Position numbers and translations under genes: made by a program. DNA of 64,000 nucleotides from Chloroflexota bacterium (GTDB taxonomy: Bacteria > Chloroflexota > Anaerolineae > Anaerolineales > UBA4823): the NCBI GenBank assembly GCA_020349245.1, contig CP070764.1, forward strand, positions 1,156,347 to 1,220,346, written 5' to 3'. How positions within the stretch are numbered: position 1 is the stretch's first letter; each line of letters opens with the position of its first letter. Below, piece after piece: positions 7,719 through 58,396 of this stretch. The notes below the pieces were generated by a model that was given only the letters and a program-made list of their open reading frames with translations, ran no database searches and was not told where the DNA came from.

Positions 7719-7751
7719 AATGATGCAGATATTGAACAAATTCGATTAAAT

Positions 7752-8684
7752 CTACCCACCGCGTTCATAAGGTTTCGTCAGGGCAGATGGGGGACGTACC
7801 CGCTGTACAGCAACGATTAAAGCGAGAATGGTTAATACATACGGCATCATGACAGCAATATCTGACGGAATCGGGATATTCAATACCTGGACCCACAGCT
7901 GTAAGGCGTTAACCATGCTGAAGATCAGCGATCCTACCAGGACACCCAGAGGACGCCAACCCCCAAAATAAACCAGGGCTACAGCAATAAAACCTAAACC
8001 ACTGGTCAAATTTTGCTGGAAAACGTTGAGCAGAGCGATGGAGAGTGATGCCCCGGCAACTCCGGACATGACACCCCCGAAGATCGCCGTGAAATAGCGG
8101 ACTCCGCTCACACTCACCCCCAGGGTATCTGCAGCTTCTGGATTCTCACCCACCGCGCGGATTTTAAGACCGAGGGTTGTTTTACTCAATACAAACCAAG
8201 AAATGGGCACCATGATATAGGCAAAGTATACGAGTAAGTTCTGTTGGAAGAAGATTTCGCCGATGAAGGGGATATCGCTCAAGTAAGGTATGTAGACCGA
8301 TGGAAATCCACTTACGGTTTCTACAGTGCCTAAGGTTTTCTGGAAAAGCAACTCGCTCATTCCCAGGCCAAATAAGTATACCCCGATTCCACTAATCCCC
8401 TGCTCTGCCTTGAGGGTGACATTGATCACCGCAACTGCCAATCCAAGGATTCCACCAACGAGAATTGCAGCTAATAAACCCAGCCAGAGATTCTCGGTGA
8501 TGAAAGTTGTATAGAACGCGGCGAAGGCTCCCAGTAACATGATACCTTCAACGCCCAGGTTGAGCACGCCGCTCTTCTGTCCGAATGTCTCTCCCAGAGA
8601 GGCATAAAGATACGGGGTTGCCAGGCGGAACCCGGATGCCAGAATACCCACCAGAACAGTGGTTGTGAACAGCTCGCCGATCAA
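7752..8684 (-). CDS. Nucleoside ABC importer permease, NupQ/YufQ-like (set 2)
   Basis: A 310-residue polytopic inner-membrane protein of the BPD_transp_2 family, with about eight hydrophobic segments. GQKSGVLNLGVEGIMLLGAF near residue 35 and GENPEAADTLGVSV near 178 are typical of BMP-linked permeases. It probably starts with TTG at 8684, because that codon overlaps the stop of the preceding permease gene by four bases (TTGA), a coupled arrangement. It pairs with the product of 8681-9814 to form the membrane channel. The cargo is inferred to be a nucleoside or nucleobase from the adjacent BMP lipoprotein and deaminase genes. Confidence 0.88.
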   Translation of the reverse strand: MIGELFTTTVLVGILASGFRLATPYLYASLGETFGQKSGVLNLGVEGIMLLGAFAAFYTTFITENLWLGLLAAILVGGILGLAVAVINVTLKAEQGISGIGVYLFGLGMSELLFQKTLGTVETVSGFPSVYIPYLSDIPFIGEIFFQQNLLVYFAYIMVPISWFVLSKTTLGLKIRAVGENPEAADTLGVSVSGVRYFTAIFGGVMSGVAGASLSIALLNVFQQNLTSGLGFIAVALVYFGGWRPLGVLVGSLIFSMVNALQLWVQVLNIPIPSDIAVMMPYVLTILALIVAVQRVRPPSALTKPYERGG

Positions 8685-9814
8685 GTTGGCACCTTCGGGT
8701 CTGCTGGTGCTGTTGTTTCACTGACCATTTCGGCTTCCCGCCTGCGGGATATTTTTCTCCGCCAGTAATCCGCGCTGACAACAAAAACCACTACCAAGCC
8801 GTTCAGGGCGATGATAAATGAAGAAGGAACCTGCATCACGCGCTGCAGTTTATTAGCCCCGACGATAAGGGCGCCGAACAAAAATGAAGCCGGTATGGCT
8901 CCCAGCGGATGAAGCTGACCGAACAATGCCACAACAATGCCGTTAAAACCAGCACTGCCTGTGAATCCTGTGGCTGAACCATCTGTAAACATCCTGTGGT
9001 GCAGGCCATAAACCTGGATGGCACCCGCGAGACCGCAAAAAGCACCGCTGAGCAGCAATGAAAGGACGATGTTCCTGGGAACATTTATCCCCGCATAACG
9101 CGAGGCGCTCGGGTTCAAACCAACGGCCCGTATGCGGTAACCTATCACCGTTCGCCACAGGAAAATGAAAACCAGGAAGGCGGCGATAATTGCTAATCCG
9201 GTTCCCAGGTGCAATCGGGTGGGTACAAGGCGGGGAAGATCGAAAGCAACGCTAAGCCGCGCAGTTTGGGGAATGCGTGAGGCTGCTTCCAGCTGGACAG
9301 GATCGATCATCGGTCCCCGGAGCAGGTAATTCATCCCCTGAACAGCGATGGCATTCATCATGATCGTGCTCAGGATCTCATTCACATTGAAATACGCCTT
9401 AAGTAAGCCCGGGATCGCACCCCAAAAAGCGCCTGCAAGAAACCCAACCAGAAGTGCAACCGGGATCATCAGGTAGCCTGGCATCTCAGGCAAAGTCAAT
9501 CCAATCAGGGTTGAGGTTACAGCCCCCAGGACCAGCTGCCCTTCACCACCTATGTTGATCACCCCCCCTCTAAAGGCGATACAAATTCCCAGGGCAACCA
9601 GCAACAAGGGCGTGGCTTTCACCAATGTATCTGCCAACGCATTCGTGCTGCCAAAGGCACCTTCAAGGAGGGCGCCATAGGCGACCACCGGGTTGGCATC
9701 AAAAACCATGAGCATCACCGCACCGACACCCAGGGCTGCCAACGTGGCTAAAAATGGCAGCAGGATATCAAAGGCACGCCAGATCTTAGGATACTTGGAG
9801 AAGAAATCTTGCAT
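8681..9814 (-). CDS. Nucleoside ABC importer permease, NupP/YufP-like (set 2)
   Basis: A 377-residue polytopic permease of the BPD_transp_2 family. FRGGVINIGGEGQLVLGAV (about 82-100) is the conserved cytoplasmic loop, and RAVGLNPSASRYAGINV is the coupling region facing the ATPase. It has about nine or ten membrane segments and a short charged C-terminal tail (RRKISRRREAEMV). It is the heterodimer partner of the following gene, with which it overlaps. It starts with ATG 10 bases after the preceding permease gene, which belongs to the other set, so both transporters share one transcript. Confidence 0.88.
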   Translation of the reverse strand: MQDFFSKYPKIWRAFDILLPFLATLAALGVGAVMLMVFDANPVVAYGALLEGAFGSTNALADTLVKATPLLLVALGICIAFRGGVINIGGEGQLVLGAVTSTLIGLTLPEMPGYLMIPVALLVGFLAGAFWGAIPGLLKAYFNVNEILSTIMMNAIAVQGMNYLLRGPMIDPVQLEAASRIPQTARLSVAFDLPRLVPTRLHLGTGLAIIAAFLVFIFLWRTVIGYRIRAVGLNPSASRYAGINVPRNIVLSLLLSGAFCGLAGAIQVYGLHHRMFTDGSATGFTGSAGFNGIVVALFGQLHPLGAIPASFLFGALIVGANKLQRVMQVPSSFIIALNGLVVVFVVSADYWRRKISRRREAEMVSETTAPADPKVPT

Positions 9815-9824
9815 GATCGAATGA

Positions 9825-10799
9825 TTAATCCTCGACGAAAGTTGATCCCAGTGCCTGCGGCGGGCTTATTCTCAGCATTCGCTGCAAGGGCCGTCTCAAG
9901 GATTTCGGTGCAATGGTGATCACCCTCTCGGTAAAATCGCTGCCAACCAGCAGCAGCACCAGGATCATTAATACCCAGGGGATAGCATTAAACGCCACCA
10001 CGGACACCTCTGGAAATGTCCTCTGCAAATATGTCGCCAGGGCTTTCGTTGCACCAAAGAGCAGAGCGCCGAACATACCGCGAATAGGGGACCAACCACC
10101 AAATATGACGATCGCCAGGGCGATCCAGCCCAAACCGCGAGTGATGCCCTCGGACCAGCCAATCTTGATGTTCAATGAATAGGAGGCTCCGGCAATCCCC
10201 ACCAACGCTCCACCCAGGACAGTATACAAATAGCGTTGCAAGTTGATGCCCACACCCCTGGCAAAACCTGCCTCAGGACGGTCTCCAGCGCTGCGCAAGC
10301 GCAAACCCGGCTGGGTGCGGAACAACCAGAACCAGGTTACCAATACCAGGAGATAAGCAAAATAAACCACTGCATCCTGGTTGAAGAAGATTGGACCGAT
10401 GATGGGAATATCTTTCAAGACGGGAATAGGAAAATGGGTGACTACAGGACCAGGAATACGGGTGTAATTTTGTCCCAGAAAAGCACTCAAATCATCCCCT
10501 AACAGGGTGAGAACAAAGCCAATCGCAAACTGGCTTTGTCGCAGCCGTATGCTGCCAAAAGCAACGATGAATGCAAATATCGCACCCACGCCCATTGCAC
10601 CTAAAAAGCCAATCCAGACACTGTCGGTCTCAAGAGCGAAGACAAAACCGGTCATGGCAGCCATCAGCATTGTGCCATCCAGCGATAAGTTTACAATTCC
10701 TGCTCGCTCCGTAAGTATTTCACCACACACGGCAATAATCAGCGGGGTGGAAGCAAGCACAATCGAAGCCAAAGTGAGGATTAATGGGCTGCTATCCAT
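9825..10799 (-). CDS. Nucleoside ABC importer permease, NupQ/YufQ-like (set 1)
   Basis: A 324-residue polytopic permease. ERAGIVNLSLDGTMLMAA is the family loop and SAGDRPEAGFARGVGI the coupling region. The chosen start (MDSSPLIL) overlaps the end of the upstream permease gene by eight bases; a longer reading from a TTG would add a polar segment lying wholly within that gene. It is a diverged paralogue of the 7752-8684 protein and pairs with the 10792-11835 product. Two non-identical NupPQ pairs in one operon argue for two different cargoes, not simple redundancy, but the cargoes are not readable from sequence. Confidence 0.86.
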   Translation of the reverse strand: MDSSPLILTLASIVLASTPLIIAVCGEILTERAGIVNLSLDGTMLMAAMTGFVFALETDSVWIGFLGAMGVGAIFAFIVAFGSIRLRQSQFAIGFVLTLLGDDLSAFLGQNYTRIPGPVVTHFPIPVLKDIPIIGPIFFNQDAVVYFAYLLVLVTWFWLFRTQPGLRLRSAGDRPEAGFARGVGINLQRYLYTVLGGALVGIAGASYSLNIKIGWSEGITRGLGWIALAIVIFGGWSPIRGMFGALLFGATKALATYLQRTFPEVSVVAFNAIPWVLMILVLLLVGSDFTERVITIAPKSLRRPLQRMLRISPPQALGSTFVED

Positions 10800-11835
10800 C
10801 CTGATCCTTTTTGCGGAAAATTCCGAGCTTCGACCAATCTCCAAACAGGAGGACAAACAACACCATCAGCTCGGTTAATATGCCGCCCAAGGAGGAATGC
10901 AGTTGGGTTCGTAACTGGAGGGTGATGCTGCCATTGAGAACCATAGAGAAAAAGAAAGCGATAAACGGCACCAAGATGATGCGGTAATTGGCCAGCATAA
11001 CCACAAGTAAAGCCATGAATCCAATTCCACCAGATATGCTCTGACGCAAGCTGTCAAACCAGCTCAGCGTCCGCACTGCTCCCCCCAATCCCGCCAGGGC
11101 TCCGCAGAACATCATCGCCAGGATCATTTCACGTTCGCTTGATACACCCAGCAAGAAGGCCGATCGCAAGTTCTTTCCAATGGCTTTCAGTTTTAATCCC
11201 CAGAATGTCCCCCGTAAGGCGATAACCACCAGGGCGAAGGCGATTATTGCCAGCACAAGTGAGAGGGGGCTGAATCGCGAATTGGCATATAGTGGAAGCA
11301 ACGCTCCCGGCTGGAAAGGCTCGGTACCCCTGAAAGTACCCCCTTCAGGAGGTTGCCATGGTCCAGAAATAAGGTAATTTGTCAGTATGATGGCAATGCT
11401 GTTCAAAGCCAACCCGCTGAATATTTCATGGACTTTTCCGCGGGTTTTCAGCACAGCGGAGAGTGCGGCCCAAAGTGCACCGGCAGCCATTGCGACCAAA
11501 ATCTCGAGCGTGATCAAAACCCATGAAGGCGCATTCAGACTCAAAGCCACCCAGGAGGCAGCAATTGCACCAAGAATGATCTGCCCTTCAACACCGATAT
11601 TCCACAAGCCCGCTCTGAAGGTGACCAGCAGACCGGTTGCACTGAGCAGCAAGGGGATCCAAAACGCAACGACGCTCAGTGTCTTCGATTGATCTCCAAA
11701 AGCTCCAGCATACATCGCCTGGAAAGCTTCAAGAGGCGCAGCACCGAAAAGAAATAGCAGCAGGGAGGTGACCAGTAAAGCCCCAACAATGGGAACCACC
11801 GGCCATACCCACCGGATCCATCGGCTGCTGTTCAT
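10792..11835 (-). CDS. Nucleoside ABC importer permease, NupP/YufP-like (set 1)
   Basis: A 347-residue inner-membrane permease of the BPD_transp_2 family. FRAGLWNIGVEGQIILGAI near residue 75 and KAIGKNLRSAFLLGVSS near 215 are the family signatures. Its start overlaps the stop of the upstream ATPase gene by four bases (ATGA) and its end overlaps the next permease start, so ATPase and both permeases of set 1 are translationally coupled. It has about nine membrane segments and a lysine-rich C-terminus (FRKKDQDG). No separate binding-protein gene lies beside this set, so the tandem BMP lipoprotein downstream is the likely supplier. Confidence 0.87.
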   Translation of the reverse strand: MNSSRWIRWVWPVVPIVGALLVTSLLLFLFGAAPLEAFQAMYAGAFGDQSKTLSVVAFWIPLLLSATGLLVTFRAGLWNIGVEGQIILGAIAASWVALSLNAPSWVLITLEILVAMAAGALWAALSAVLKTRGKVHEIFSGLALNSIAIILTNYLISGPWQPPEGGTFRGTEPFQPGALLPLYANSRFSPLSLVLAIIAFALVVIALRGTFWGLKLKAIGKNLRSAFLLGVSSEREMILAMMFCGALAGLGGAVRTLSWFDSLRQSISGGIGFMALLVVMLANYRIILVPFIAFFFSMVLNGSITLQLRTQLHSSLGGILTELMVLFVLLFGDWSKLGIFRKKDQDG

Positions 11836-13295
11836 GCCAGCCCTCCGATCAAGTGCCCGATTTCCTCGACACTGGTTTCCTTAGTCTGGAGGACTCGCGA
11901 CATAACCCCGCCTGAAAACACTGCAATCCGGTCACTTCGTTCGAAAATCTCATCGAGATCAGCCGACATGAAGATGATCGCGGTCCCACTCTCACGCCGC
12001 TGGTAAAGCTGCTCCCAGATCCAATTCGAGGAGCGCACATCCAATCCACGCGTTGGGTGCTCGAGTAAGATGAGCTTCAGGTCATCCCGCAGCAAAGCGA
12101 ACAGCAACCTTTGTTGGTTACCTCCTGACAATTCATCCGCGGTAGAATCAGACCGGCCGACAATTTGATATTGTTCGATCTTCGCTTCGGTCTTGGAGGT
12201 AAGCACTTTCCAATCGACAAAGAACTTGTGTTTTGGCTGGGCAAGTTCGATATGCTCTGCGATAGTTAGACCGGCGACCAATCCCTCTTCCAGGCGCCCT
12301 GCTGCAGCATATCCCACTCCGGCTGCTTGCATTCGATGGTATGACCATCCCGTCACATCCTCATTCGCCAACAGCATCTTACCGTGATCTGGATGCAATA
12401 ATCCAGCACAAGCCTGCAGCAACAATTGCTGCCCGCTGCCTTCCAAGCCTGCCAGCCCGAACACTTCCCCCTGGCGAACATTCAGATTGATATTTTCAAC
12501 GGTTAACCTGTATGTTGGGATCCTCAGATCGGTGATTTCAAGCACCGCTTCACCAAGCTTGGCGGCTGGTCGCTCTCCTCTTTCAGGAATTTGACCAAAC
12601 ATCATCCTGACCAGTTTTTCATTGGGACAAGGGATGTCAGTCTCACCGACCAATTTGCCATACTGCAACACCATGGCATCATCACAAAGTTCCTGAACCT
12701 CATCCAGCTTATGAGAGACCAGGATCAGGGTTTTACCTTCTTCCCTGGCCAGCTTGCGCATTGAATCAAACAGGACATCTTTTTGGTCAGCGCTGATGCC
12801 AGTTGTTGGTTCATCCAGGATCAAGACCTGGGCTCCGCCAACCAGGAGGCGTGCCAGTTCAAGTTGCTGCCGTTCTCCCAATGAAAGATTCTCGATGTGG
12901 GATAGAAGATCCAGCTCGAAGCTGAAACGGGAGGTCATCTCCTGCAGCTCCAGGCTGGCTTTTTTATAGTCGAGGACAAGCCGCCGGTCGCGACCAAGCA
13001 GATAATTTTCGTTTACAGTAAAGGGAGGGACATCCAGGGGATCCTGGTACAGCATACCGATTCCTTTACCCATTGCATCTGCAGGAGATGAAAAGTACTG
13101 GGTCTCTCCATCGAAAACGATCTCCCCCGAATCAGGCGGCTGGTAACCGGATAGTATCTTCATCAACGTGCTTTTACCAGCCCCGTTCTCACCTAGGAGT
13201 CCATAAATACGCCCGCCCTCGAGGACGAGGCTTATGCCGTCGTTTGCTTTTACCGGACCAAAATACTTGCGAATGTCTCGCAGTTCGATGTGCAT
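11832..13295 (-). CDS. Nucleoside-type ABC importer, double ATPase (set 1)
   Basis: A 487-residue protein with two ABC domains. The first has GENGAGKST (about 35-43), LSLGERQQLELARLL and LILDEPTTGI. The second has a degenerate Walker A (GLEGSGQQLL), a canonical LSGGNQQRLLFALL signature and HPTRGLD. One catalytic and one degenerate site is usual for RbsA/NupO-type ATPases. No good Shine-Dalgarno sequence precedes the ATG, unlike most genes here. A 120-base gap separates it from the carbamate kinase gene, the widest break in the cluster after the promoter, so a secondary promoter there is possible. Confidence 0.9.
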   Translation of the reverse strand: MHIELRDIRKYFGPVKANDGISLVLEGGRIYGLLGENGAGKSTLMKILSGYQPPDSGEIVFDGETQYFSSPADAMGKGIGMLYQDPLDVPPFTVNENYLLGRDRRLVLDYKKASLELQEMTSRFSFELDLLSHIENLSLGERQQLELARLLVGGAQVLILDEPTTGISADQKDVLFDSMRKLAREEGKTLILVSHKLDEVQELCDDAMVLQYGKLVGETDIPCPNEKLVRMMFGQIPERGERPAAKLGEAVLEITDLRIPTYRLTVENINLNVRQGEVFGLAGLEGSGQQLLLQACAGLLHPDHGKMLLANEDVTGWSYHRMQAAGVGYAAAGRLEEGLVAGLTIAEHIELAQPKHKFFVDWKVLTSKTEAKIEQYQIVGRSDSTADELSGGNQQRLLFALLRDDLKLILLEHPTRGLDVRSSNWIWEQLYQRRESGTAIIFMSADLDEIFERSDRIAVFSGGVMSRVLQTKETSVEEIGHLIGGLA

Positions 13296-20751: not shown

Positions 20752-21885
20752 ATGGAAAGCAAACCGACCCGCGTTTTAATCCTGATGCTTGGCTTATTCC
20801 TGATCACGGCAATCGTTTTCGGGTTAAGCGGTGAACGAGGTGCTGCGGCACCAGGCAGCCTGGAAATAGCAGCGCAAACAGACACGAATCGCCGGAATAT
20901 CTCCTTCCGCATCCCGGAAACGCTTTCAGACCAGGCCAGCACGTTCTGGACAGAAGAGCAGATGCTCTCCGCCCAACCCTACCCCCTGCTAGCGATCAAT
21001 GAACCCCCAAGGATCAGCCTGGAATCTCCGCAACCTGACGGACTACCGGGAGTCATCCCCGGCTTCCCACCCGAGGCAGCCCAGCTGCTTTCCGCAGATT
21101 CGGAAACGCAGCTGGCTTTTTCTGAGGCGGCTGCATTGGGCTACGACTACCCACCGCCCTACGCCCGCTACCAGAATTTTGATTCCTACAAGGTTTATCC
21201 TTATTCCACGGTGGGAGTCTTGTTTTTCAATCGGGGAGGAAAATCTTTCAGCTGCACAGCTGCCTCGATCGGCAACAGCGCCATCTGGACCGCCGGTCAC
21301 TGCATCCACGAGGGGGATGGCCAGCTGGATTCGCAGGGAAACGTCATCGATTGGGGCACCTGGTCGACAGATGTACTGTTCGTCCCTGCCCGCCGCAACA
21401 GCAGCACTCCCTACGGCGTTTGGACAGCTAACGAACTATGGATCACGCCAGAATGGTTCGACGGGGGAGACCTGCGCTACGATATGGCCGGGGTGGTGCT
21501 CAATCAGAACGGCGGCACTATCAGCCAGGTCGTGGGCACGTTAGGCTTTAGCTACAACAGGGGTGGCAGCCTGCACTGGATGAACATCGCCTACCCGGCC
21601 GACCCGCCCTTCAACGGTTTGACCCAGCAAATCTGCGCCGGTTCCTTCGCCTACCGGGACACCTATCCACCCAGCCCATACCCAGTGGCGATGGGCTGCG
21701 ACATGACTGGTGGTTCGAGCGGTGGACCCTGGATTTTAAATTTTGGCGGCTCAACCCCTTCACAAAATTATCTCAACGGGAACAATTCCTACCGCTATCC
21801 CAGCCATCCTGAAGAAATCTACTCGCCCTACTTTGACTCTGATGCCAAGTCATTGTGGGACGATCTTGTAGGAATTATCAATTAA
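20752..21885 (+). CDS. Secreted trypsin-fold (S1) serine protease, copy 1
   Basis: A 377-residue exported protease. An N-terminal hydrophobic segment (about 8-25) is a signal peptide or anchor, and roughly 110 residues of proline-rich propeptide-like sequence follow. The catalytic triad can be placed at His183 (WTAGHC), Asp244 (DLRYDMAGV) and Ser323 (GGSSGGPW). The layout resembles glutamyl-endopeptidase or V8-like S1 proteases more than trypsin. AAGGAGA lies six bases before the ATG. A diverged copy follows directly, so the pair arose by tandem duplication. Likely role: extracellular protein digestion supplying amino acids; the actual cleavage specificity is not evident. Confidence 0.88.
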   Translation: MESKPTRVLILMLGLFLITAIVFGLSGERGAAAPGSLEIAAQTDTNRRNISFRIPETLSDQASTFWTEEQMLSAQPYPLLAINEPPRISLESPQPDGLPGVIPGFPPEAAQLLSADSETQLAFSEAAALGYDYPPPYARYQNFDSYKVYPYSTVGVLFFNRGGKSFSCTAASIGNSAIWTAGHCIHEGDGQLDSQGNVIDWGTWSTDVLFVPARRNSSTPYGVWTANELWITPEWFDGGDLRYDMAGVVLNQNGGTISQVVGTLGFSYNRGGSLHWMNIAYPADPPFNGLTQQICAGSFAYRDTYPPSPYPVAMGCDMTGGSSGGPWILNFGGSTPSQNYLNGNNSYRYPSHPEEIYSPYFDSDAKSLWDDLVGIIN

Positions 21886-21954
21886 ATCGTTTGAATATAT
21901 GTTCATGAAAATGACCTCATACATAATCCGCCATCGAATATCTTGGAGGCAGGC

Positions 21955-23127
21955 ATGAAAGATTTCCAAACACGTTTCACTTCAAATATTTTCGCATCTG
22001 TCCTGCTCGCTCTCCTTTTATTCACGTTGGTCGCTGTGCCAGGCGTGGCGGTTGCTACTGGCAACACTGCCCTTATGCTGCAGCTCATCCGCAGCGAGGA
22101 TACCCCCCCCGGGGTGATCTCCGCCCGCCAGAGCGGCGTGGAATTGACCTCCGCCCAGCAGCCCTGGACCTCAACCAGGATGATGGCTGCCAAGCCCTAT
22201 CCCTTACCAGAATTCAGTGCACCGCTGACAGTCTTAAGCGATGATCCCTTGCCCTCCGCAGATCCGGTCTATATCCCCAGCGCGCCCCCTGACAGCAGTT
22301 CTCCAGCTTTTCCTGCTGATGATCTGGTTGAGGGTTTTTCCCGTACTTCTCTGCTGGGATACGATTATCCAGCTCCGTTCACACGCTTTCAAAACTTCGA
22401 TGATTACACTGTCTTCCCATATTCAACGGTCGGGGTTTTGTTCTTCAGGCAAAATGGCGGTGATTACCGCTGTTCTGCAGCCTCTATCGGCAGCAATGCG
22501 GTCTGGACCGCCGGGCACTGCCTCCACGATGGTTCTGGAAACGCGAGTGGCTGGTCTGAAAACGTAGTCTTCGTCCCAGCATATAAGAACGGCAATGCCC
22601 CATTCGGCTCCTGGTCTTTTTACGACCTGGTCACCCGGGTAGCCTGGTTTTCGGGGGGTGATCTTCGCTTTGATATGGGTGGGGTGATCCTCGAACCCAA
22701 CGCATCCAATCAAACCCTTGAAGAAGTGGTCGGCAACCTTGGCTTCGCCTACAATCTCAGTCCTGAACAGCATTGGTTCAATTTTGGCTACCCATCTGCT
22801 GCTCCCTTCGATGGCTTTACGATGCAGATTTGTGCTGGTTCGTTCGCCAGGAATGATCCAAATTTCAGCTTTCCCGCTCCCATGGCCATGGGCTGCGATA
22901 TGACTGGTGGGGCAAGCGGTGGACCCTGGATAATCAACTTCAGCGGGACTCCTGGCAATTCGAATTATCTTAACGGCAACAACAGCTACCGTTATAAGGA
23001 CGATTTACTGGAAATCTATTCTCCATATCTTGGGGACGTCGCCAAAGATTTACTCGATTTCATCTCGGATAGCACGCCATACCGCACGATATCGATCCAC
23101 CTGCCGATCGTTGCTGCAGATCGATAG
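21955..23127 (+). CDS. Secreted trypsin-fold (S1) serine protease, copy 2
   Basis: A 390-residue paralogue of the preceding protein with the same plan: a signal segment (about 10-32), a proline-rich pro-region, and a protease domain with His188 (WTAGHC), Asp240 (DLRFDMGG) and Ser321 (GGASGGPW). Shared blocks such as YDYPAPFTRFQNFDDY and NYLNGNNSYR show recent common origin. The ATG at 21955 is preferred because GGAGG lies five bases upstream; an earlier TTG overlaps that site. A 57-base gap separates the copies and no terminator is seen between them, so cotranscription is likely. The linkers differ most between the copies, which may reflect distinct activation or surface placement. Confidence 0.87.
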   Translation: MKDFQTRFTSNIFASVLLALLLFTLVAVPGVAVATGNTALMLQLIRSEDTPPGVISARQSGVELTSAQQPWTSTRMMAAKPYPLPEFSAPLTVLSDDPLPSADPVYIPSAPPDSSSPAFPADDLVEGFSRTSLLGYDYPAPFTRFQNFDDYTVFPYSTVGVLFFRQNGGDYRCSAASIGSNAVWTAGHCLHDGSGNASGWSENVVFVPAYKNGNAPFGSWSFYDLVTRVAWFSGGDLRFDMGGVILEPNASNQTLEEVVGNLGFAYNLSPEQHWFNFGYPSAAPFDGFTMQICAGSFARNDPNFSFPAPMAMGCDMTGGASGGPWIINFSGTPGNSNYLNGNNSYRYKDDLLEIYSPYLGDVAKDLLDFISDSTPYRTISIHLPIVAADR

Positions 23128-25711: not shown

Positions 25712-27880
25712 CTAAGGACGCCAGGCAGGATCGAATTCAAAACCTTCTTCACTGGTCAAACGCTGCCTGCCCAACCCGTTGGGGGTCGTCATGATAAAGA
25801 TGTCGTGATTGCTGCCCTCTGGCCAGCTTTCAAATGCGATCCAGGCGCCATCTGGAGAAAAAGCTGCTTCACGCATCGGGATCACCTCCTGGACCACACG
25901 CTGCTCAATCAAGTTGCCTTCTTCTACCCGCATGGCAACCAAACGCGGCACGCCTCCCAAAACTTCGGTCTGGGTGTACATGATCACTTGCCCATCTGGA
26001 GACCAAATGGGGTGGGTATCCTTCAAACTTCCACTGCGCGAGAAGAGAGTTGCCTCACTGCCATCCTCTGCCATGATCCAGATCTGGTAGGGACCACGTC
26101 GAGTGGTGACAAAAGCGATCTGATCTCCACCGGGAGACCAGGCAGGCTGGCTGTCGCGGACAGTGTTCGCAGAAAGAGAACGGGTTGTTTCTGATTCAAA
26201 GCTGTACTCATAAACCTGCGCCCGGTTATAGTCGCGCAAGGAGGTAAAGATTATCCTGCTCCCATTCGGAGACCAGACCGGGTCAAAATCCCCTCCAGGC
26301 ACGGAAGGCAGGGCGATCAAATCACTGCCATCCACATTGATCAGGAATATCCCGGCGCCAGGGTAGATCTCCTGGTTTCCAGCGCAGGGAGATATAAATG
26401 CCAGGCGTTGCCCATCCGGCGACCAGGCAGGCTGGCAGGCACCCTCCGGCATTTCGGTGATTTGCCTTGCAGCGGTGCCATCCGAGTTCATCAACCAGAT
26501 CTGTGGTAAACCCGTCAAGTCGCTTGCATAAGCGATTTGGCTGGATCCACCCCCCAACGGTGTCGGAGAAGGTGTGAATGTCGCAGATGGTCGTGGAATT
26601 TGTGTTGCTTCACCTGCTGCTGAAATCGTACGCGTTATGGTTGGGGAGGGGGTAACTTGGGTTGGGGTGGGAGTCTGATCGCGGGAGGTGACCAGACTTG
26701 TCCGTTCTTGTCCTGGGGTGATAGTCGGGGAAGGCGTATCTGGTGTAGATATTATCGGGATCGCTACCGGGTTACCTGGTATCCAGGCGACAGCCCTGAG
26801 GATCAATTCTGGTTGAAACAGGTACACCCCTCCAATCACCGCGGTAAAAATAATCAAGAAGAATGCCCCGATGACCCAGCAACCAATCTTCCGTTTTTCT
26901 GGTTTCAGAGAACCGATTGACGAATCGATTTGAACGGAACCAGCTGCAGATTGGTTCTCCCCGTTGAATAAAGCTTCAGGTGAATAGAGAGATTGGGAAT
27001 TTACTGCAGAAGCCGCTGCCCCAGGAGCTGCCGGGGTAAGGGTGGCTTCTTTGGTAACCCTTTGGCTGCTGATCACCCGCGAGTTAATCAGCGCTTTTTT
27101 GAATTCCTCTGCGGTTTGATAGCGCTTCTCAGGTTTTAACTCCATGGCTTTTTCGATAACCGCAGCGAGCCGTCTGGACACTTTCGGATTATGCTTTCGA
27201 ATAGACGTCAGATCCACCTGCCCCATGGCGCGTGCAAGGGCATCCTCAGGTAGCTCGCCGGTTATTGCCATGTAGAGAGAGGCACCCAAGGAATAAATAT
27301 CTGAACGGTGATCCGTGCGTGCCGTTCCATATTGTTCTGGGGGGGAATACCCTGGAGTCATCGCCCTCGCCCCGGTACTCGTCACCTGGCTTCCCTGAGT
27401 GAGCTTGGCGAGACCGAAATCTACCAAGATGATGGTTCCAGTAGGGGCGATCTTAATATTGCCAGGTTTAATGTCCCGGTGAACCACCTGCGGTTGGCGA
27501 GAATGGAGATACCCGAGCGCATCGCAGATAGCGGCACCCAGGATTACGGAATCAGCGTCGGAAAGTAACCCCTGGCGGTCAATACGCTCCCGTAAATCTT
27601 CCCCCTCGATGAAATCCATGACCAAGTATTGACCCTGCCCATCAATGACAAAATGGTCGGTTACTCTTGGCAAATTTGGATGGCGAAGGTTGGCGAGGAT
27701 GACTGCCTCGCGACGGAATTGACGCGCATATTCCTCAGAGGTGAATAAATTCTCTTTTACCGCAACTTCCACCCCAAGATTTTCATCCACAGCACGATAA
27801 ATCGAACCCATACCACCCTGGCCAAGGATCTCTTCGATTCGATATCGATTAATCAACCGTGAACCGCGTTCAATCGTCAT
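25712..27880 (-). CDS. Membrane Ser/Thr protein kinase with extracytoplasmic TolB-like propeller
   Basis: A 722-residue receptor-like kinase. The kinase domain (about 10-270) has the glycine loop LGQGGMGSIY, K42 in VAVKE, HRDIKPGN (134-141) and DFG (154-156), so it should be active. A linker leads to one transmembrane helix (about 332-355), then a Ser/Thr/Pro-rich stalk (about 376-440). The outside domain (about 445-722) consists of repeats carrying PAWSPDGQRLAF, PVWSPNGSRIIF, PAWSPGGDQIAF and PIWSPDGQVIMY, typical of PD40/TolB propeller blades. The topology suggests sensing of an outside ligand or envelope state. No phosphatase lies beside it; a PP2C gene is encoded at 51.5 kb. Confidence 0.93.
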   Translation of the reverse strand: MTIERGSRLINRYRIEEILGQGGMGSIYRAVDENLGVEVAVKENLFTSEEYARQFRREAVILANLRHPNLPRVTDHFVIDGQGQYLVMDFIEGEDLRERIDRQGLLSDADSVILGAAICDALGYLHSRQPQVVHRDIKPGNIKIAPTGTIILVDFGLAKLTQGSQVTSTGARAMTPGYSPPEQYGTARTDHRSDIYSLGASLYMAITGELPEDALARAMGQVDLTSIRKHNPKVSRRLAAVIEKAMELKPEKRYQTAEEFKKALINSRVISSQRVTKEATLTPAAPGAAASAVNSQSLYSPEALFNGENQSAAGSVQIDSSIGSLKPEKRKIGCWVIGAFFLIIFTAVIGGVYLFQPELILRAVAWIPGNPVAIPIISTPDTPSPTITPGQERTSLVTSRDQTPTPTQVTPSPTITRTISAAGEATQIPRPSATFTPSPTPLGGGSSQIAYASDLTGLPQIWLMNSDGTAARQITEMPEGACQPAWSPDGQRLAFISPCAGNQEIYPGAGIFLINVDGSDLIALPSVPGGDFDPVWSPNGSRIIFTSLRDYNRAQVYEYSFESETTRSLSANTVRDSQPAWSPGGDQIAFVTTRRGPYQIWIMAEDGSEATLFSRSGSLKDTHPIWSPDGQVIMYTQTEVLGGVPRLVAMRVEEGNLIEQRVVQEVIPMREAAFSPDGAWIAFESWPEGSNHDIFIMTTPNGLGRQRLTSEEGFEFDPAWRP

Positions 27881-47919: not shown

Positions 47920-49311
47920 TTATGCATCCAAGGCTTTGCGAATCGAATCACCCAATGCAAGCGCATTTTGGGGGGCATTCCCGATATATTGGTCAACATC
48001 CATCAAAATCCGAAGATTATCCGCCTCCACGTAATTGAGGAACATCGGCTCCTTGGCAATCAGCTCAATTAACGGATTCTTTTCCTGATTCTCTATAGAT
48101 CGCCATGCTTGCATTGAAAGTTCTCGCAAACGCTCATGCATCACCTGGCGGTCAGCACCAGCAGCAACCAATGCCATCAGTACACGTTCTATGCTTGAAA
48201 ATGTCCCATACCGGTCGAGATTATAACGTATTGCCTTTTCATCGATAACAAGTCCTTCGACAATGCGCTGAGCGACGACCAGCAGCTCATCGGTGATCAA
48301 GAATGCTTCAGGGAGCATAGAACGGCGATTGGCAGAATCATCCAGCGTCCTTTCCAGTGCGGAGAGAGCAGCGTTGTCCCAAGCCTGACGAGGAAATTGA
48401 GCCAGGGACCGCGCCAGGGAATCAATCTTTTCAGCATTAATCGGATTGCGCTTGAAGGGCATGGCTGATGAACCAACCTGCTTATCACTAAAAGGTTCTG
48501 CAAGCTCCCCAAAGGCAGGAGATTGAAGTATGCGCAGATCAAATGCAAATTTATACAGTGATATGCCCAGTCCGGCCAGGCTGCACAGGATGCGGTAATC
48601 CTGTTTACGGGGGTAAACTTGCGATGTCGCTGGGAAAAAGGGCAGATTTAATTTCGCAGAGAGTTTTAATTCAAATTCATTCAGATTTTCTCTTCCGATC
48701 AATTCAGCAAAAGATGCACCAGTGCCAACAGCGCCCTTGAAACCCTTGCCACGCAAATTCCGATTTACCTGCCGCAAATCTTCCCAATCCATGAGCAGGT
48801 CTTGTGCGTAGAGCGCAAACCGGTAGCCAAGCGTTGTCGGTTCAGCAGGTTGAAGGTGAGTGTATCCCATCAGGGGAAGCTCAGCCCATCGTTCAGCTGC
48901 CTTGGCGAAGATCAGTAGCAACTCGTGCAGCTTCTCAAGGATTAAACTGAGTGCTTGACGGGTGCGAAGTACATCAGCATTATCTTCAATATCGGCGGAG
49001 GTAGCTCCTAAATGTAATATACTGCCACCGACCGCTGCATCCTCGGCAAAACTTTTTAACTCCGCCATCAAATCATGATGGATTTGACTTTCAATCTGGA
49101 GTGCTCGCTGAACATCAACCTGGTCGGCGAATCTCCTTAAATCGGCAACCTGCTCGTGATTAACCAGGCCGTAATCGCCCTGCACTTCAGCCAAAGCGAC
49201 CCAGATTTTACGCCACAGGCGTCGCTTATGTACTTCACTCCATAAATGACGCATATCTTCTGAACCGTAACGCCAGGAATATGGAGAAAGATAATTCTCA
49301 TAATTGTTCAT
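47920..49311 (-). CDS. purB: Adenylosuccinate lyase
   Basis: A 463-residue enzyme of the fumarase/aspartase superfamily for purine synthesis and AMP formation. HLGATSADIEDNAD, GYTHLQPAEPTTLGYRF and the superfamily signature GSSAMPFKRNPINAEK are present. The overall pattern matches adenylosuccinate lyases rather than argininosuccinate or aspartate lyases. The ATG at 49311 has AAAGGA about nine bases upstream; a TTG two codons earlier is less likely. It is a lone minus-strand gene with a possible TATAAT element about 40 bases before the start. Confidence 0.93.
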   Translation of the reverse strand: MNNYENYLSPYSWRYGSEDMRHLWSEVHKRRLWRKIWVALAEVQGDYGLVNHEQVADLRRFADQVDVQRALQIESQIHHDLMAELKSFAEDAAVGGSILHLGATSADIEDNADVLRTRQALSLILEKLHELLLIFAKAAERWAELPLMGYTHLQPAEPTTLGYRFALYAQDLLMDWEDLRQVNRNLRGKGFKGAVGTGASFAELIGRENLNEFELKLSAKLNLPFFPATSQVYPRKQDYRILCSLAGLGISLYKFAFDLRILQSPAFGELAEPFSDKQVGSSAMPFKRNPINAEKIDSLARSLAQFPRQAWDNAALSALERTLDDSANRRSMLPEAFLITDELLVVAQRIVEGLVIDEKAIRYNLDRYGTFSSIERVLMALVAAGADRQVMHERLRELSMQAWRSIENQEKNPLIELIAKEPMFLNYVEADNLRILMDVDQYIGNAPQNALALGDSIRKALDA

Positions 49312-49550
49312 CTGCAAAATTCCTTTCGCTATCGCCAGTAGTATTATACTGATAGCATCAGCAGCGTGAAAGGAAAAGCTTTCTAATGTGCATAATTGTA
49401 ATTTGCCTTAACCATTGTTGCTGGCTATAATCACAAGTATCATTCTTTTTTATCTATCGCAAACCTGACCGTGAACTTAATTTGTTGATCAAGGAATCAA
49501 AATTACGCTCATCGGGACCAGGGATTTACGATTATCAGGCGGGCTGATTT

Positions 49551-51416
49551 ATGAATCAAAACATTAATTCCGATGGTTTATCACTGACCAAAGGTACCCG
49601 GCTCCGTGACCGCTACCTGATACAGGAGGCAATCCGCATATCCCCTGAAAGCGCAGTTTACCAGGCGCGCGATTTACATTTCCCGAATGTAATCAAACTC
49701 GTAATGTTGAAAGAATTTCGCAATTCATCACCAGATCCCTCTGAGAGAACAAAAAATGTAGAGAAATTTGAACGCCGCGCCAACCTGCTCGCCACGCTCT
49801 CTCACCCGGCGATACCCAGCATCCTGGATTATTTTACAGAAGGGAGAAATTCATATCTGATCATCGAATCCATCAAAGGACAAAATCTTGAGGAGATCAT
49901 CAAAGGGACCAGTGGACATCTCCAACAGGAACAGGTTATTCAATGGGCAGTCGGGTTGTGTGAAATTCTGCAGTATTTGCATTTGCATAAACCTGAAGCG
50001 ATCATCTTGCGAAACCTGAATCCTTCAAATATCTTCCTTAACCAGCACAGCAATTTGATGTTAATCGATTTTGGGATTGCGCTTGATTTCCAGATTGAGG
50101 GTCAAATGATGACTCGAACGCCTGATGGATACGTTGCACCCGAAATAACCGGGGGCAAAGAAAGTGCTTGGATGGATATCTATTCCCTTGGTGCTTGCCT
50201 GTATTTTTTCCTCACCAAACAGCACCTTGCTTCCGAAGCCTCGACCTATCTCACCCAACATCCAATCCAGGATCAAAATCCAGATGTTCTTCCAGAACTT
50301 GAACTTATCGTAAATAAAGCGATACAGCACAATCCTGCAGACAGGTATTCGAGCGCGGAAGAAATGAAAGATGACCTGCTTAAAATTATTGGCAGGTCAG
50401 ATTCGAGAAACCTTTCACCACAAACTAACCTTGTCAATCCATTCCCACCTAATACGATCCAACCAATTTGGACTTTCCGCTGTGCCGACGAAATTCGCGG
50501 ATCAGCTCAATCTTCTGGTGGCATCGTTTACTTTGGCTCATATGACAACAATCTCTATGCAGTGAAGACCGAATCCGGGAAACTTCTCTGGAAATATGAG
50601 ACCGATGGTGGGATTGTGAGTCGTCCGGCGATACAGGCTGATTCCGTATTTGTCGGTTCTGAAGACCATCGCCTGCATGTTGTCTCAACCCGCTCTGGTT
50701 CCTTGCTATGGACATACTACACGAAAGGGCCGATACGTTCTTCACCATTTATCGCCCATGGTCATATATTTATCGGTTCAGATGATATGTCTGTGCATGC
50801 TGTAAATATCAATGGCGGACGCGGTATATGGCAGATAGAGACCATCGCTGAAATCCGGTCAACTCCTTTTGTGACACAGGAAGGCGTCTATGCAGGTAAT
50901 GAGTCGGGGGAATTCTATTGCATAGATTTTCGTGGAGGTATCAAATGGCGTTTCAAAGCCAAAAGAGCGATCACCTCATCTGCTACCGTTGCGGATAACC
51001 TGGTAATCTTCTGTTCTCTCGATTCCTACCTCTACGCAGTAGACGAAAAATCAGGGTATTTAGTTTGGCGATTCAAGATGGATAGAGGGTCAATTTCCTC
51101 ACCTTGCGTCCATCAGGGCTTGGTCTATACTGGATCTATCGATGGTAATATATACTGCGTGAATATTAAGAACGCCAAGGAAGTGTGGCGGTTTAAGACC
51201 GAGCACCAAGTCACAGGTTCTCCCATCATTTATGAAGATGGAGTATATTGTGGATCTGTAGATGGACATTTGTACTGCGTTGACAGTCAAACAGGTAAAC
51301 TGCGCTGGAAGTTCCGTACGGAACACGCGATAACTGCGACTCCGGTAGCTTCGGATGGGCTTGTCTTTATTGGGTCAACTGACAAAACTTTCTACGCCCT
51401 GCCTGCCAAACTGTGA
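49551..51416 (+). CDS. Probable Ser/Thr pseudokinase fused to an eight-repeat PQQ-type propeller
   Basis: A 621-residue protein. The kinase-like domain (about 15-280) keeps a possible VAIK lysine (K54 in VMLKEF) and DFG (173-175). The glycine-rich loop is replaced by EAIRISPESAVY, and the HRDxKxxN catalytic loop reads LRNLNPSN (153-160), so both the catalytic Asp and Lys are Asn. Phosphotransfer is therefore unlikely. The C-terminal part (about 306-621) has eight repeats of the PQQ/BamB propeller type, each ending in patterns such as VYFGSYDNNLYAVKTESGKLLW and VYTGSIDGNIYCV. No membrane helix is seen, so it is probably cytosolic. It is followed by a PP2C phosphatase gene 98 bases downstream, suggesting a shared signalling role. 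Confidence 0.85.
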   Translation: MNQNINSDGLSLTKGTRLRDRYLIQEAIRISPESAVYQARDLHFPNVIKLVMLKEFRNSSPDPSERTKNVEKFERRANLLATLSHPAIPSILDYFTEGRNSYLIIESIKGQNLEEIIKGTSGHLQQEQVIQWAVGLCEILQYLHLHKPEAIILRNLNPSNIFLNQHSNLMLIDFGIALDFQIEGQMMTRTPDGYVAPEITGGKESAWMDIYSLGACLYFFLTKQHLASEASTYLTQHPIQDQNPDVLPELELIVNKAIQHNPADRYSSAEEMKDDLLKIIGRSDSRNLSPQTNLVNPFPPNTIQPIWTFRCADEIRGSAQSSGGIVYFGSYDNNLYAVKTESGKLLWKYETDGGIVSRPAIQADSVFVGSEDHRLHVVSTRSGSLLWTYYTKGPIRSSPFIAHGHIFIGSDDMSVHAVNINGGRGIWQIETIAEIRSTPFVTQEGVYAGNESGEFYCIDFRGGIKWRFKAKRAITSSATVADNLVIFCSLDSYLYAVDEKSGYLVWRFKMDRGSISSPCVHQGLVYTGSIDGNIYCVNIKNAKEVWRFKTEHQVTGSPIIYEDGVYCGSVDGHLYCVDSQTGKLRWKFRTEHAITATPVASDGLVFIGSTDKTFYALPAKL

Positions 51417-51514: not shown

Positions 51515-52363
51515 ATGAAGAATTCCAACCTACCGACTGAACCATACGATCCCCAGACTAACAAAGAAGCTCCAATGGCAGGTGAAGCGAAGAATTATTA
51601 CACTGTCGGGGTTGGCAGTTCGATTGGTATTCAACGCGAGCACAATGAAGATGCTGTTTTTTCAGTGACTACCAACTTGCTAACGAACCAGGTGAATTCT
51701 TCAATTGGTCTGTATATCGTGGCTGATGGCATGGGTGGCCATCTTCACGGGGAGATCGCCAGCGAGTTAGCTGTTCACGCAATTGTAAGCAGTGTGATCC
51801 CTGGGTTGTTGTTATTCAACACGGATGAAAGGGGAGAAAAGCCTGCGGAAAATGGTCGCCAGCTGATGGAAGCAGGTATAGATTCTGCTCACCAGGCCGT
51901 TCTCCATCAAGCGCCTGGTGGGGGGACTACGCTGACGGCAATGCTGATCATTGGAAATCAAATGACGATTGCCCACATTGGTGATAGCCGTGCATACCAT
52001 ATCGATGATACTGGAAATGCTCGTGTCCTCACCACTGATCACTCCCTCGTCAAACGCTTACAAGACTTAGGACAGATTACTTCAGATGAGGCAGCCATTC
52101 ATCCACAGCGCAATGTGCTGTACCGGGCGTTAGGACAGGTTGAATCGATAGATCCTGAATTTATTTCTGCTCCGATACCAGAATCAGGATATTTATTGTT
52201 ATGTTCTGATGGTCTTTGGGGCGTAGTGCCTGACCAAAAAATGGTCGAAATCATTCATTCTTCAGATTCTCCTCAGCAAGCCTGTCAAGCTTTACTGCAA
52301 ACAGCGAACGCCGCTGGTGGTCCGGACAATATCTCCGTGATCATCATTAAAATTTTGCAGTGA
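51515..52363 (+). CDS. PP2C-family protein phosphatase
   Basis: A 282-residue metal-dependent Ser/Thr phosphatase. The metal and phosphate motifs are intact: REHNEDAV, VADGMGGHLHGEIAS, GGGTTLTAM, IAHIGDSRAY, LLCSDGLWGVV and GGPDNISVIIIKI. The N-terminal 30 or so residues are polar and variable. It lies between the pseudokinase-propeller and a small unknown protein gene. It could reverse phosphorylation by the active kinases encoded at 25.7 and 57.3 kb. No clear Shine-Dalgarno site precedes the ATG. Confidence 0.93.
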   Translation: MKNSNLPTEPYDPQTNKEAPMAGEAKNYYTVGVGSSIGIQREHNEDAVFSVTTNLLTNQVNSSIGLYIVADGMGGHLHGEIASELAVHAIVSSVIPGLLLFNTDERGEKPAENGRQLMEAGIDSAHQAVLHQAPGGGTTLTAMLIIGNQMTIAHIGDSRAYHIDDTGNARVLTTDHSLVKRLQDLGQITSDEAAIHPQRNVLYRALGQVESIDPEFISAPIPESGYLLLCSDGLWGVVPDQKMVEIIHSSDSPQQACQALLQTANAAGGPDNISVIIIKILQ

Positions 52364-52415
52364 TACCAAGGGTTTTACCCAAAGAGAAAATATTCATTCC
52401 TTAGGAATATCACAC

Positions 52416-52661
52416 ATGTCAAAATTAGTCATTTTGCATATCCTGAACTCAGAGCCCATTCTGGGAGAGATCGATGAGCTACCCGCTCCAACCGATAATA
52501 TAATTGTTGTGCAAAACCCACGACAAATTGATGGAAAGGATCTCAGCTACCTTCAGCATCAAGTTACAACAGTCATCTGGCCAATCGAAAAGATTAATTT
52601 TATCGAAATCGTGCCGGGTGAAGATGAAGACGAGGATATCATAGGATTTGTGAGGGAGTAA
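52416..52661 (+). CDS. Small acidic protein of unknown function
   Basis: An 81-residue soluble protein, predicted acidic, ending in EDEDEDIIGFVRE. It starts with VILHILNSEPILGEIDELP and has alternating hydrophobic residues suggesting a small beta-rich domain. It is encoded 53 bases after the PP2C gene and three bases before the OmpR-type regulator gene, so it is likely in the same transcript. I recognise no family. It may be a partner or modulator of the regulator; this is inference from position. Confidence 0.7.
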   Translation: MSKLVILHILNSEPILGEIDELPAPTDNIIVVQNPRQIDGKDLSYLQHQVTTVIWPIEKINFIEIVPGEDEDEDIIGFVRE

Positions 52662-52664
52662 TCG

Positions 52665-53396
52665 ATGCAGGAAAGTTTTAAAGATAGACGAATCTTAGTT
52701 GTTGACGATGAAGAGCGGATGGTCCGTTTTATTCGTTTGAACTTAGAACATGATGGTTTTCAAGTTTTTGAAGCTTTTAATGGCAAACAGGCGATCGACA
52801 AAATACGCAGCAACTTGCCCGATCTGGTCTTATTGGATGTGATGATGCCCGATATCGATGGCTTTGAAGTATTGGAGATGATCAGGGAATCGAATACCGT
52901 GCCGGTGATCATGTTGACTGCAAAAGGGGAAGAAGAGGATCGAGTGCATGGTCTGGAACTCGGTGCAGATGACTACATCACAAAACCATTCAGTCCCCGG
53001 GAATTAGTGAGCAGGGTGCGCGCAGTGTTACGCAGAACCGAAATGACTGGTGCCAGCACGCATGGTCTAATCGAAGTGGATGAGCGCTTAAAAATTGATT
53101 TTGATCGCCACGAAGTTTGGGTAGAAGGGGAGCTGGTTAAACTCCGACCCACTGAATATCGCCTGCTTTACCACCTCGTTCAAAATGCAGGTTGGGTTTT
53201 GACTCACGACCAGATACTCACCAAAGTATGGGGATATGAATATCGCGATGAACCTCATTATGTGCGCCTGTATATAAACTACCTGCGTCAAAAAATTGAA
53301 AAAGATCCTGCAAATCCCGGATATATCCTCACCGAACGTGGAGTTGGCTATCGATTTATTGATTTCCGGAGAGATAAAAACCACCTTGATGCCTGA
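52665..53396 (+). CDS. OmpR/PhoB-family response regulator
   Basis: A 243-residue transcription factor. The receiver domain (about 8-122) has the acidic pair in VVDDEER, the phosphoacceptor Asp in [13 protein letters not shown] and the conserved Lys in YITKPFSP. The winged-helix DNA-binding domain follows (about 140-235), with [29 protein letters not shown] and [13 protein letters not shown]. No histidine kinase gene lies nearby. GAGGG lies just before the ATG, overlapping the previous gene's end. Confidence 0.93.
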
Positions 53397-53524
53397 TCGA
53401 CACGAATGAGCGGGTCGAAGAAGATTGGTGCTCTTTTATCGCTTTCAGTACTTGTATCTCCGTGCAGACCTTGCAAGCCAATAAACTCTAGGCTATACTC
53501 ACCTCGAATAGGAATACAAAACCG

Positions 53525-54178
53525 ATGGCAAAGCAGCGCATATTATTGGTAGACGACCACGAAGTAGTCCGCTTGGGTCTAAAAGCCCTCTTAGATCGTC
53601 ATCCCGAATTTGAAGTTGTTGCTGAGGCGAGCACCGCCCGTGAAGCGATTGAAAGAGTAGCAACTTATTCTCCTGATGTCGTTGTAATGGATATCCGCTT
53701 ACCGGGCGGCTCTGGGATCGATGCCTGTGATGAGATCTCCACGAATTATCCGGGCACAAAAGTAATTATGCTGACATCTTATGCCGAAGATGAGATGCTC
53801 TTTTCAGCAATCCGGGCTGGTGCCTCAGGCTATGTATTAAAACAAATCGGTGGTGAAGACCTAGTACGGGCAATTGAAGCTGTTGGAAGAGGGGAAGCCC
53901 TGCTCGACCCTGCCGTTACCCAGCGAATTTTTCAAGAGGTGCGCAAAGCGGCAAAAGAAGAGGAAGCATCAGCATTTTCTGCGCTCACCCAACAGGAACG
54001 GCATGTCCTACTGCTAGTTTCTGAAGGGAAAACAAACCGCGAAATTGCCAAAGCACTCTTTCTTGGTGAGGGTACTGTCCGCAATTACGTCAGCAGCATT
54101 TTATCGAAATTAGGGGTGAGCAACCGGGCTGAAGCTGCAGCTTATGCGGTTGAACATAATCTAAAGGACTATCTTTAG
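53525..54178 (+). CDS. NarL/FixJ-family response regulator
   Basis: A 217-residue regulator. The receiver domain (about 5-120) contains [10 protein letters not shown], phosphoacceptor Asp in [13 protein letters not shown], and the Lys in [11 protein letters not shown]. The LuxR-type helix-turn-helix is at the C-terminus ([44 protein letters not shown]). It lacks an adjacent sensor kinase. A terminator follows within 60 bases, so it closes the plus-strand signalling block that begins near 49.5 kb. Confidence 0.93.
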
Positions 54179-57340: not shown

Positions 57341-58396
57341 ATGACCGAAACAATATTAATTAACAATCGCTACAAAATCGTGAATACCTTGGGTAAGGGT
57401 GGCATGGCAGTCGTTTACCTCGCCCGCGACTTGACCTTGGAACGCAACGTAGCCATCAAGGTCCTGCTCCAAGCGTTCTCAAAAGATCCAGCTTTCCGTG
57501 AACATTTTCATCAAGAAGCAAAGGCCGCCGCCAATCTCTCCCATCCAAATATCGTCACGATTTATGATTTTGGCTTCGATGAAGACCGTTTATTCATCAT
57601 CATGGAATATGTTCCAGGGTCTGATCTAAAACAACTCCAAAAAGATGCGGAGCTTTTTGAAATTGACCGGACCTTGAAGCTAATCAGGCAGGTCTGTGCT
57701 GGTGTTGGATATGCTCATAGAGCTAGCCTCGTACACTGTGATATCAAACCACAAAACCTATTAATCTCCCCGGAAAACCATTTGAAAGTTGTCGATTTTG
57801 GAATTGCGCGGGCATTAGCTTCAATTACCCCAGGAGAAAAAGCAGATATCGTGTGGGGCTCACCTCATTATTTCTCACCTGAACAGGCTGCGGGGATAGC
57901 CCCATCACCTTCTTCAGATGTATATTCGATTGGCATCATCATGTATGAGATGCTCACCGGGCAATTACCTTTCAAAGCTTCAACCTCCACTGAACTAGCC
58001 AGGATGCAGCGAGAGATATTGCCAACTGCACCCCGCCAGCTCAACCCCGATATCCCCCCGGATTTAGAGCAGATCTTGCTGAAAGTGCTTTCAAAGGAGC
58101 CTGCAGCACGCTACCGCACTGCAGATCAGCTGGGTCGTGTCCTGCTGGCTTTGCAGCAGGACACCGAAAAACCGAGCTGGGTACCGCCACGTGTCCCCTC
58201 GAGTCCTGAGAACAGCACTGCAGCCACACAACCTTACGAGCTTCCAGCGTCTCCAGAAGTCGTTAAGGTCCGATCGAATCCGTTCGACCTGGATTGGATC
58301 ACAATCCTATTAGCCTTGCTGGCCCTAATCGCAGTCGGGGGGTTGATCCCTTTTTTCCTGTGGGTATATTTTGTTTATTTTCCCCCCATTCGCTAG
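57341..58396 (+). CDS. Membrane Ser/Thr protein kinase
   Basis: A 351-residue kinase. The catalytic domain (about 10-270) has LGKGGMAVVY, K40 in VAIK, E59, HCDIKPQN (132-139) and DFG (152-154). The HCD in place of HRD makes it a non-RD type, though the catalytic Asp remains. A Ser/Pro-rich linker leads to one transmembrane helix (about 322-348) with almost no outside tail. So, unlike the kinase at 25.7 kb, it has no extracytoplasmic sensor. It may respond through a partner protein. A weak hairpin terminator lies about 100 bases after it. Confidence 0.92.
   Translation: MTETILINNRYKIVNTLGKGGMAVVYLARDLTLERNVAIKVLLQAFSKDPAFREHFHQEAKAAANLSHPNIVTIYDFGFDEDRLFIIMEYVPGSDLKQLQKDAELFEIDRTLKLIRQVCAGVGYAHRASLVHCDIKPQNLLISPENHLKVVDFGIARALASITPGEKADIVWGSPHYFSPEQAAGIAPSPSSDVYSIGIIMYEMLTGQLPFKASTSTELARMQREILPTAPRQLNPDIPPDLEQILLKVLSKEPAARYRTADQLGRVLLALQQDTEKPSWVPPRVPSSPENSTAATQPYELPASPEVVKVRSNPFDLDWITILLALLALIAVGGLIPFFLWVYFVYFPPIR

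Follow-up and report, generated by a model that had tools for sequence, protein, structure and literature searches.

A gene at positions 49551–51416 (+) of the window, by which we mean the whole 64,000-nucleotide stretch of Chloroflexota DNA analysed here, raises the question of whether a protein built like a serine/threonine kinase is still an enzyme and, if it is not, what it may be kept for. The gene, defined by its open reading frame, Pfam matches and orthologs, starts at an ATG codon and encodes 621 amino acids. A kinase-fold domain occupies residues 15–290 (49593–50420, +) in the Pfam Pkinase match and AlphaFold model, the Pfam match itself covering residues 49–272 (E = 9.5e-28). An eight-bladed PQQ/BamB-type propeller follows at residues about 304–620 (50460–51410, +), assigned from Pfam, AlphaFold, Foldseek and W-motif repeats; PQQ_2 and propeller families cover residues about 304–617 (PQQ_2 E = 1.3e-43), and there are eight W-motif repeats (W307, W347, W387, W427, W466, W506, W546 and W586). 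The AlphaFold2 model, built from 62 aligned sequences, is a bilobal kinase joined to an eight-bladed propeller (mean pLDDT 86.2), and its top solved structure in Foldseek is the designed eight-bladed protein Cake8 (TM-score 0.95 by target length), with BamB a close second. No membrane helix is present in the 621-residue protein, where the highest 19-residue hydropathy mean is 1.16, and the protein is predicted to be cytosolic. Fusion of a kinase-like domain to eight PQQ-type repeats lacking a membrane helix had been proposed in an initial annotation made from the DNA letters, and the Pfam, model, repeat and hydropathy results bear it out.

Alignment with orthologs locates the changes in the kinase domain of the window's copy. 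The glycine-rich loop (residues 28–36; 49632–49658, +) is lost, reading IRISPESAV against the family IGVGGMGSV, and the alpha-C Glu at position 76 (49776–49778, +) is replaced by Arg. The degenerate catalytic loop (residues 153–160; 50007–50030, +) reads LRNLNPSN where the family has FRDMKPSN, so that the HRD Asp has become N155 and the catalytic-loop Lys N157, with Asn160 retained. The VAIK-type Lys54 (49710–49712, +) and the DFG motif (residues 173–175; 50067–50075, +) are both present. The absent glycine loop, the change of HRDxKxxN to LRNLNPSN and the retained DFG had all been noted before and are confirmed in this copy; the loss of the alpha-C Glu and the retention of K54 had been overlooked. 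The activation segment has low confidence in the AlphaFold models of both the pseudokinase and an intact sister ortholog, and disorder there is therefore not peculiar to the pseudokinase.

To place these changes we surveyed orthologs. Protein matches occur in 61 of 61 and 400 of 400 searched genomes, in some of them to other kinases only, and full-length orthologs with about 40–54% identity are present in most genomes searched. Because these full-length orthologs are collinear across most searched genomes of the order, the kinase–propeller architecture is not a chance arrangement. A species-genome scan yielded 80 named loci, mostly labelled Anaerolineales, Anaerolineae or Chloroflexi/Chloroflexota, and plasmid and phage searches with the protein returned distant kinases only. 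With collinear full-length similarity and a PP2C phosphatase gene directly downstream, the window gene belongs to the Anaerolineales kinase–PQQ–PP2C orthologous group. Catalytic features were scored in ortholog matches that start by query residue 40 and reach residue 540, after removal of identical cores; this left out the fragments L052, which has an intact catalytic loop and DFG, and L049, which lacks that region. Among the 126 distinct full-length orthologs, 121 carry all seven scored catalytic features, four are degenerate and one is N-truncated (L031, in which the glycine loop alone is missing, that loop lying past the contig end and the N-terminus being unsequenced). The window comes from a genus of uncultured Anaerolineales, and the four degenerate orthologs are precisely those genus members that could be assessed, namely the window's protein and those of genomes G002, G003 and G004 (L165, L096 and L097); the fifth genus genome, G001, holds the last 48 residues of the protein only and is not counted among the four.

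Within the genus the same catalytic sites are lost by differing substitutions. The glycine-rich loop is altered in all four sequences, with the GxGG glycines changed in each, the alpha-C Glu position reads R, K, Q or K, and the catalytic-loop Lys is Asn in 4/4. Other losses are uneven: the HRD Asp is Asn in two of the four, the catalytic-loop Asn is gone from one, and DFG has become NFG in every member except the window's copy. The VAIK Lys is the sole scored catalytic residue surviving in all four. Sequence comparison thus indicates a genus-level change and not a single-genome mutation. The initial annotation had held that relatives with an intact HRD would mark a mutation of one genome; such relatives do exist outside the genus, and inside it the loss is general. 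It had also suggested a search for relatives with the same substitutions; the other assessable genus members have lost the same sites by differing substitutions. The DFG that it singled out is not a constant trait of the pseudokinase, given the NFG of the other three members. Its statement that the protein is not an enzyme is well supported by the pattern across the genus: the protein is very probably catalytically dead as a Ser/Thr kinase, and the label 'serine/threonine kinase' would probably be wrong for the genus.

The gene lies in a recognizable operon. Its usual order is kinase–propeller, PP2C, DnaJ–VWA, zinc-ribbon–FHA and two response regulators, and PP2C is the next gene on the same strand at 73 of the 80 named loci, with the DnaJ–VWA/zinc-ribbon–FHA cluster downstream at 72. 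In the window, Pfam matches, alignment and locus comparison identify the conserved operon partner, a PP2C-type Ser/Thr phosphatase with intact metal-binding motifs (51515–52363, +), followed by a junction (52364–52664, +) without the DnaJ–VWA and zinc-ribbon–FHA genes present in most relatives, and then by two orphan response regulators that are conserved downstream neighbours, OmpR-family RRA (52665–53396, +) and NarL-family RRB (53525–54178, +). Upstream, purB (adenylosuccinate lyase; 47920–49317, −) is a divergent neighbour in much of the family. The adjoining PP2C and orphan regulators had been recognized in the initial annotation; the missing FHA and VWA genes were beyond a view of one window. 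RRA and RRB (52665–54178) share 80–98% identity with the corresponding regulators of the relatives that were compared, the kinase and PP2C being far less conserved. Elsewhere in the window, Ser/Thr kinases at 25712–27880 (−), which has a TolB-like C-terminal propeller, and 57341–58396 (+) have intact catalytic motifs, and by eye the translated open reading frames contain two consecutive ABC transporter sets, each with an ATPase and two permeases, together with a BmpA-like binding protein (3752–13295, −), and two tandem, similar genes for trypsin-like secreted serine proteases (20752–23127, +).

Absence of the DnaJ–VWA and FHA genes was followed through the family. The eight loci without the cluster comprise three genus members, four loci whose contigs stop within about 1 kb, and L156, whose 5 kb of downstream sequence contains no DnaJ–VWA/FHA-type gene. 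RRA directly follows PP2C in genus genomes G000, G001, G002 and G004 (in G004 after an assembly break). Across the five genus genomes, all of them assemblies incomplete to some degree, no full-length DnaJ–VWA relative was found in any, the best matches being ordinary J domains, and no close FHA relative was found; DnaJ–VWA relatives at E below 1e-80 occur in 35 of the 61 genomes searched. Genera g13, g19 and g22 also lack the DnaJ–VWA and FHA genes and have intact kinase motifs, so that this gene loss neither requires nor explains a dead kinase. The PP2C motifs are intact in the genus wherever sequenced. Four genus copies of PP2C (51515–52363 in the window, L088, L089 and L090) have in common a Thr for the usual Arg in the T-R-D-H-S motif. 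We considered loss of PP2C in G004, where the gene is split 71 kb apart, and rejected it: both breaks coincide with N runs in an assembly of joined contigs, and an intact C-terminal part adjoins RRA, and we therefore treat the split as an assembly effect. More generally, G004 (matching CP070785.1, labelled a chromosome) consists of contigs joined by N runs, and its gene order is untrustworthy (L083, L090 and L095).

An rpoB tree places the genus as sister to g15 (support 98), and a full-length protein tree agrees; a propeller-only tree puts it beside g22. We had considered that FHA and VWA were lost before kinase activity, in an ancestor common with g22, a scenario we rejected on the rpoB and full-length placements beside g15. 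Since a g15 relative has both an intact kinase (L005) and the full operon (L102), more than one sequence of events is compatible with the stem of the genus, and disagreement between the protein and rpoB trees within the genus likewise allows either order for the HRD and DFG losses.

Sequence change in the genus is concentrated in the kinase domain. Among sites that are at least 95% conserved elsewhere in the family, one or more genus members differ at 57 of 103 in the kinase domain and at 1 of 46 in the propeller (Fisher p = 2e-11). With L031 left out, all four members keep 46/103 kinase and 45/46 propeller sites, and with L031 included, 46/102 and 44/44; other family members retain a mean of 99%, and a minimum of 79%, of the conserved kinase sites. 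On a fixed tree using 45 of 52 diverse outgroup sequences, the genus accounts for 2.09 of 12.87 units of branch length in the kinase domain and 0.75 of 16.10 in the propeller, so that its kinase domain evolves about four times faster relative to the propeller than in the rest of the tree. Likewise, genus pairs show 52–72% kinase identity at 78–89% propeller identity, whereas in 113 control pairs of similar propeller identity the kinase identity is at least 81%. The reading frames nevertheless remain open in all four genus genomes, with no stops or frameshifts, and Nei–Gojobori (NG86) dN/dS in the kinase domain, computable for three of the six genus pairs, is 0.074, 0.084 and 0.147; these values are rough because dS approaches or exceeds saturation for most pairs. 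Low dN/dS and open frames indicate that the genus gene has been kept.

Relaxation is uneven along the domain. Mean pair identity falls to 0.25 in the genus against 0.97 in control pairs for the activation segment (residues 179–205; 50085–50165, +), part of which is missing from L097 (the same gene as L004), to 0.37 against 0.84 from alpha-F to alpha-H, and to 0.53 against 0.94 in the catalytic loop. By contrast, alpha-C (0.82 against 0.95) and beta-2/3 (0.86 against 0.96) are better preserved, and the region of alpha-H/I and the propeller joint is unrelaxed (0.76 in both). At this joint the heptapeptide IGRSDSR (residues 280–286; 50388–50408, +) is invariant in the genus and unlike the family consensus. 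In our reading, the sites for catalysis and substrate have been lost, and the core and propeller joint are kept for a non-catalytic use.

The explanation that we favour, whose chances as a whole we judge to be nearly even, is a dead kinase with its propeller kept and its kinase-like domain regulating the PP2C of the operon. The sequences show that in this genus a core Anaerolineales kinase has lost its glycine loop, alpha-C Glu and catalytic-loop Lys, and further catalytic residues differently in each species, and that the reading frame, propeller and adjacent PP2C have been retained under purifying selection. The propeller would go on receiving the signal or partner that it had originally, and PP2C would be bound and regulated (activated, held or localized) by the kinase-like domain by way of its retained N-lobe/alpha-C core and propeller joint. 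A switch of kinase and phosphatase with an FHA protein as its reader may in this way have turned into a means of phosphatase control, directed at sites that other kinases of the cell phosphorylate. Pkinase-model matches number 14 in the genome, and because HRD-type and DFG motifs are intact in 11 besides this one, phosphorylated substrates for PP2C are possible. Taken in parts, the protein is probably kept for some non-catalytic job, a scaffold or sensor role as first annotated fits the data, and the identification of that job with PP2C regulation is offered tentatively, at somewhat less than even likelihood. A broader account, in which a complete phosphothreonine signalling operon has been disarmed by loss of kinase catalysis, FHA reader and DnaJ–VWA protein, keeping PP2C, propeller sensor and response regulators, and in which the former kinase is an allosteric controller of the PP2C that it used to oppose, is less probable than not.

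The chief alternative to reuse is slow decay next to a propeller that still works. The propeller alone, as sensor or binding hub, would do the work, and the kinase domain would be a decaying remnant kept mainly for folding, an account with an appreciable if minority chance of being right. The relaxed kinase domain and the partly lost L097 activation segment count against reuse and fit such decay, as do the fourfold rate difference, the near-complete conservation of the propeller, the activation segment identity of 0.25 and the differences among species in which catalytic residues are lost. A mere remnant is harder to reconcile with dN/dS of 0.07–0.15 in the computable pairs, with four genomes lacking stops or frameshifts, and with the preserved alpha-C and beta-2/3, unrelaxed alpha-H/I joint and fixed IGRSDSR.

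Persisting ATP binding, or weak or altered catalysis, could instead be the selected function. Nucleotide binding can outlast the loss of catalytic motifs, other activities are known from proteins of pseudokinase fold such as SelO and SidJ, and Lys54 is present in 4/4, accompanied in the window's copy by Asn160 and DFG. Beyond Lys54, however, the four share no catalytic residue, the HRD Asp being lost in two, the DFG Asp in three, the Asn in one, and the Lys, alpha-C Glu and GxGG glycines in four, and no single alternative active site is conserved in the genus; we consider this improbable. That the degenerate kinase reflects a sequencing or assembly artefact is scarcely credible: the three named relatives in the genus were assembled from metagenomes and G004 is joined by N runs, but four genomes from separate records have the same lost sites, open frames and the synonymous-rich divergence typical of real genes.

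Compared with known systems, the genus protein stands apart from the order-wide Anaerolineales kinase–PQQ propeller (for example in Anaerolinea thermolimosa IMO-1, L136), with which it shares about 40–54% full-length identity, the same propeller and a downstream PP2C, in that the catalytic residues of the latter are all intact and DnaJ–VWA and zinc-ribbon–FHA genes, absent in the genus, usually follow. The canonical catalytic triad of kinases comprises the VAIK Lys, HRD Asp and DFG Asp. Several bacterial pseudokinase families have been described, and ActPs1 is an actinobacterial one, many members of which have a C-terminal PQQ_2 domain; it is altered at all three canonical catalytic residues, close to Act1 kinases and often without helix G, as set out in one study (PMC12599244). 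Like ActPs1, the genus protein is a pseudokinase with a C-terminal PQQ_2 domain; unlike ActPs1, the window's copy retains the VAIK Lys and DFG Asp, the HRD Asp alone of the triad being lost, and no genus member has lost all three. Whereas ActPs1 lies near actinobacterial Act1, the genus protein is nested among intact Anaerolineales kinases, and its origin therefore looks separate; identity is up to 54% to intact Anaerolineales orthologs and at most 31% among the ten plasmid matches listed, mostly from Streptomyces. The genus protein would accordingly represent a new, apparently independent variant of the pseudokinase–PQQ fusion.

RqkA is an active kinase, and TerY-P-like modules are kinase/PP2C/VWA/FHA signalling operons. 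The usual Anaerolineales operon has the same kinds of parts as those modules, by contrast with the genus, which has a degenerate kinase and no VWA or FHA gene at this place. Kinases with PQQ repeats, AfsK included, occur in Deinococcus and Streptomyces, the repeats being suggested as interaction sites, and AfsK, which is active and membrane-associated, phosphorylates AfsR, according to a further report (PMC1262709). Like the AfsK-type kinases of Streptomyces and RqkA/DR2518 of Deinococcus, the genus protein has a Ser/Thr kinase fold followed by PQQ-type repeats, and its match to the AfsK model (NF053615; E = 5e-56) reaches 190.8 bits against a curated cut-off of 1300 bits, so that it is not an AfsK equivalog. 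Literature searches on pseudokinases in Chloroflexi/Anaerolineae, on FHA–PP2C–kinase systems in Chloroflexi and on bacterial pseudokinases with PQQ repeats found nothing on this gene. The architecture is already known; a genus-level conversion of the order-wide Anaerolineales kinase was not found in the literature searched.

Bacterial pseudokinases are largely unexplored experimentally, according to the study cited above (PMC12599244). In this case a single bacterial order displays the active counterpart, the catalytic loss and the conserved phosphatase partner. The sister genus, with its intact enzyme and full operon, makes a matched pair in which to ask whether a dead kinase becomes the regulator of its own phosphatase, and the locus is a clear instance from nature of a bacterial kinase that has probably ceased to be an enzyme.
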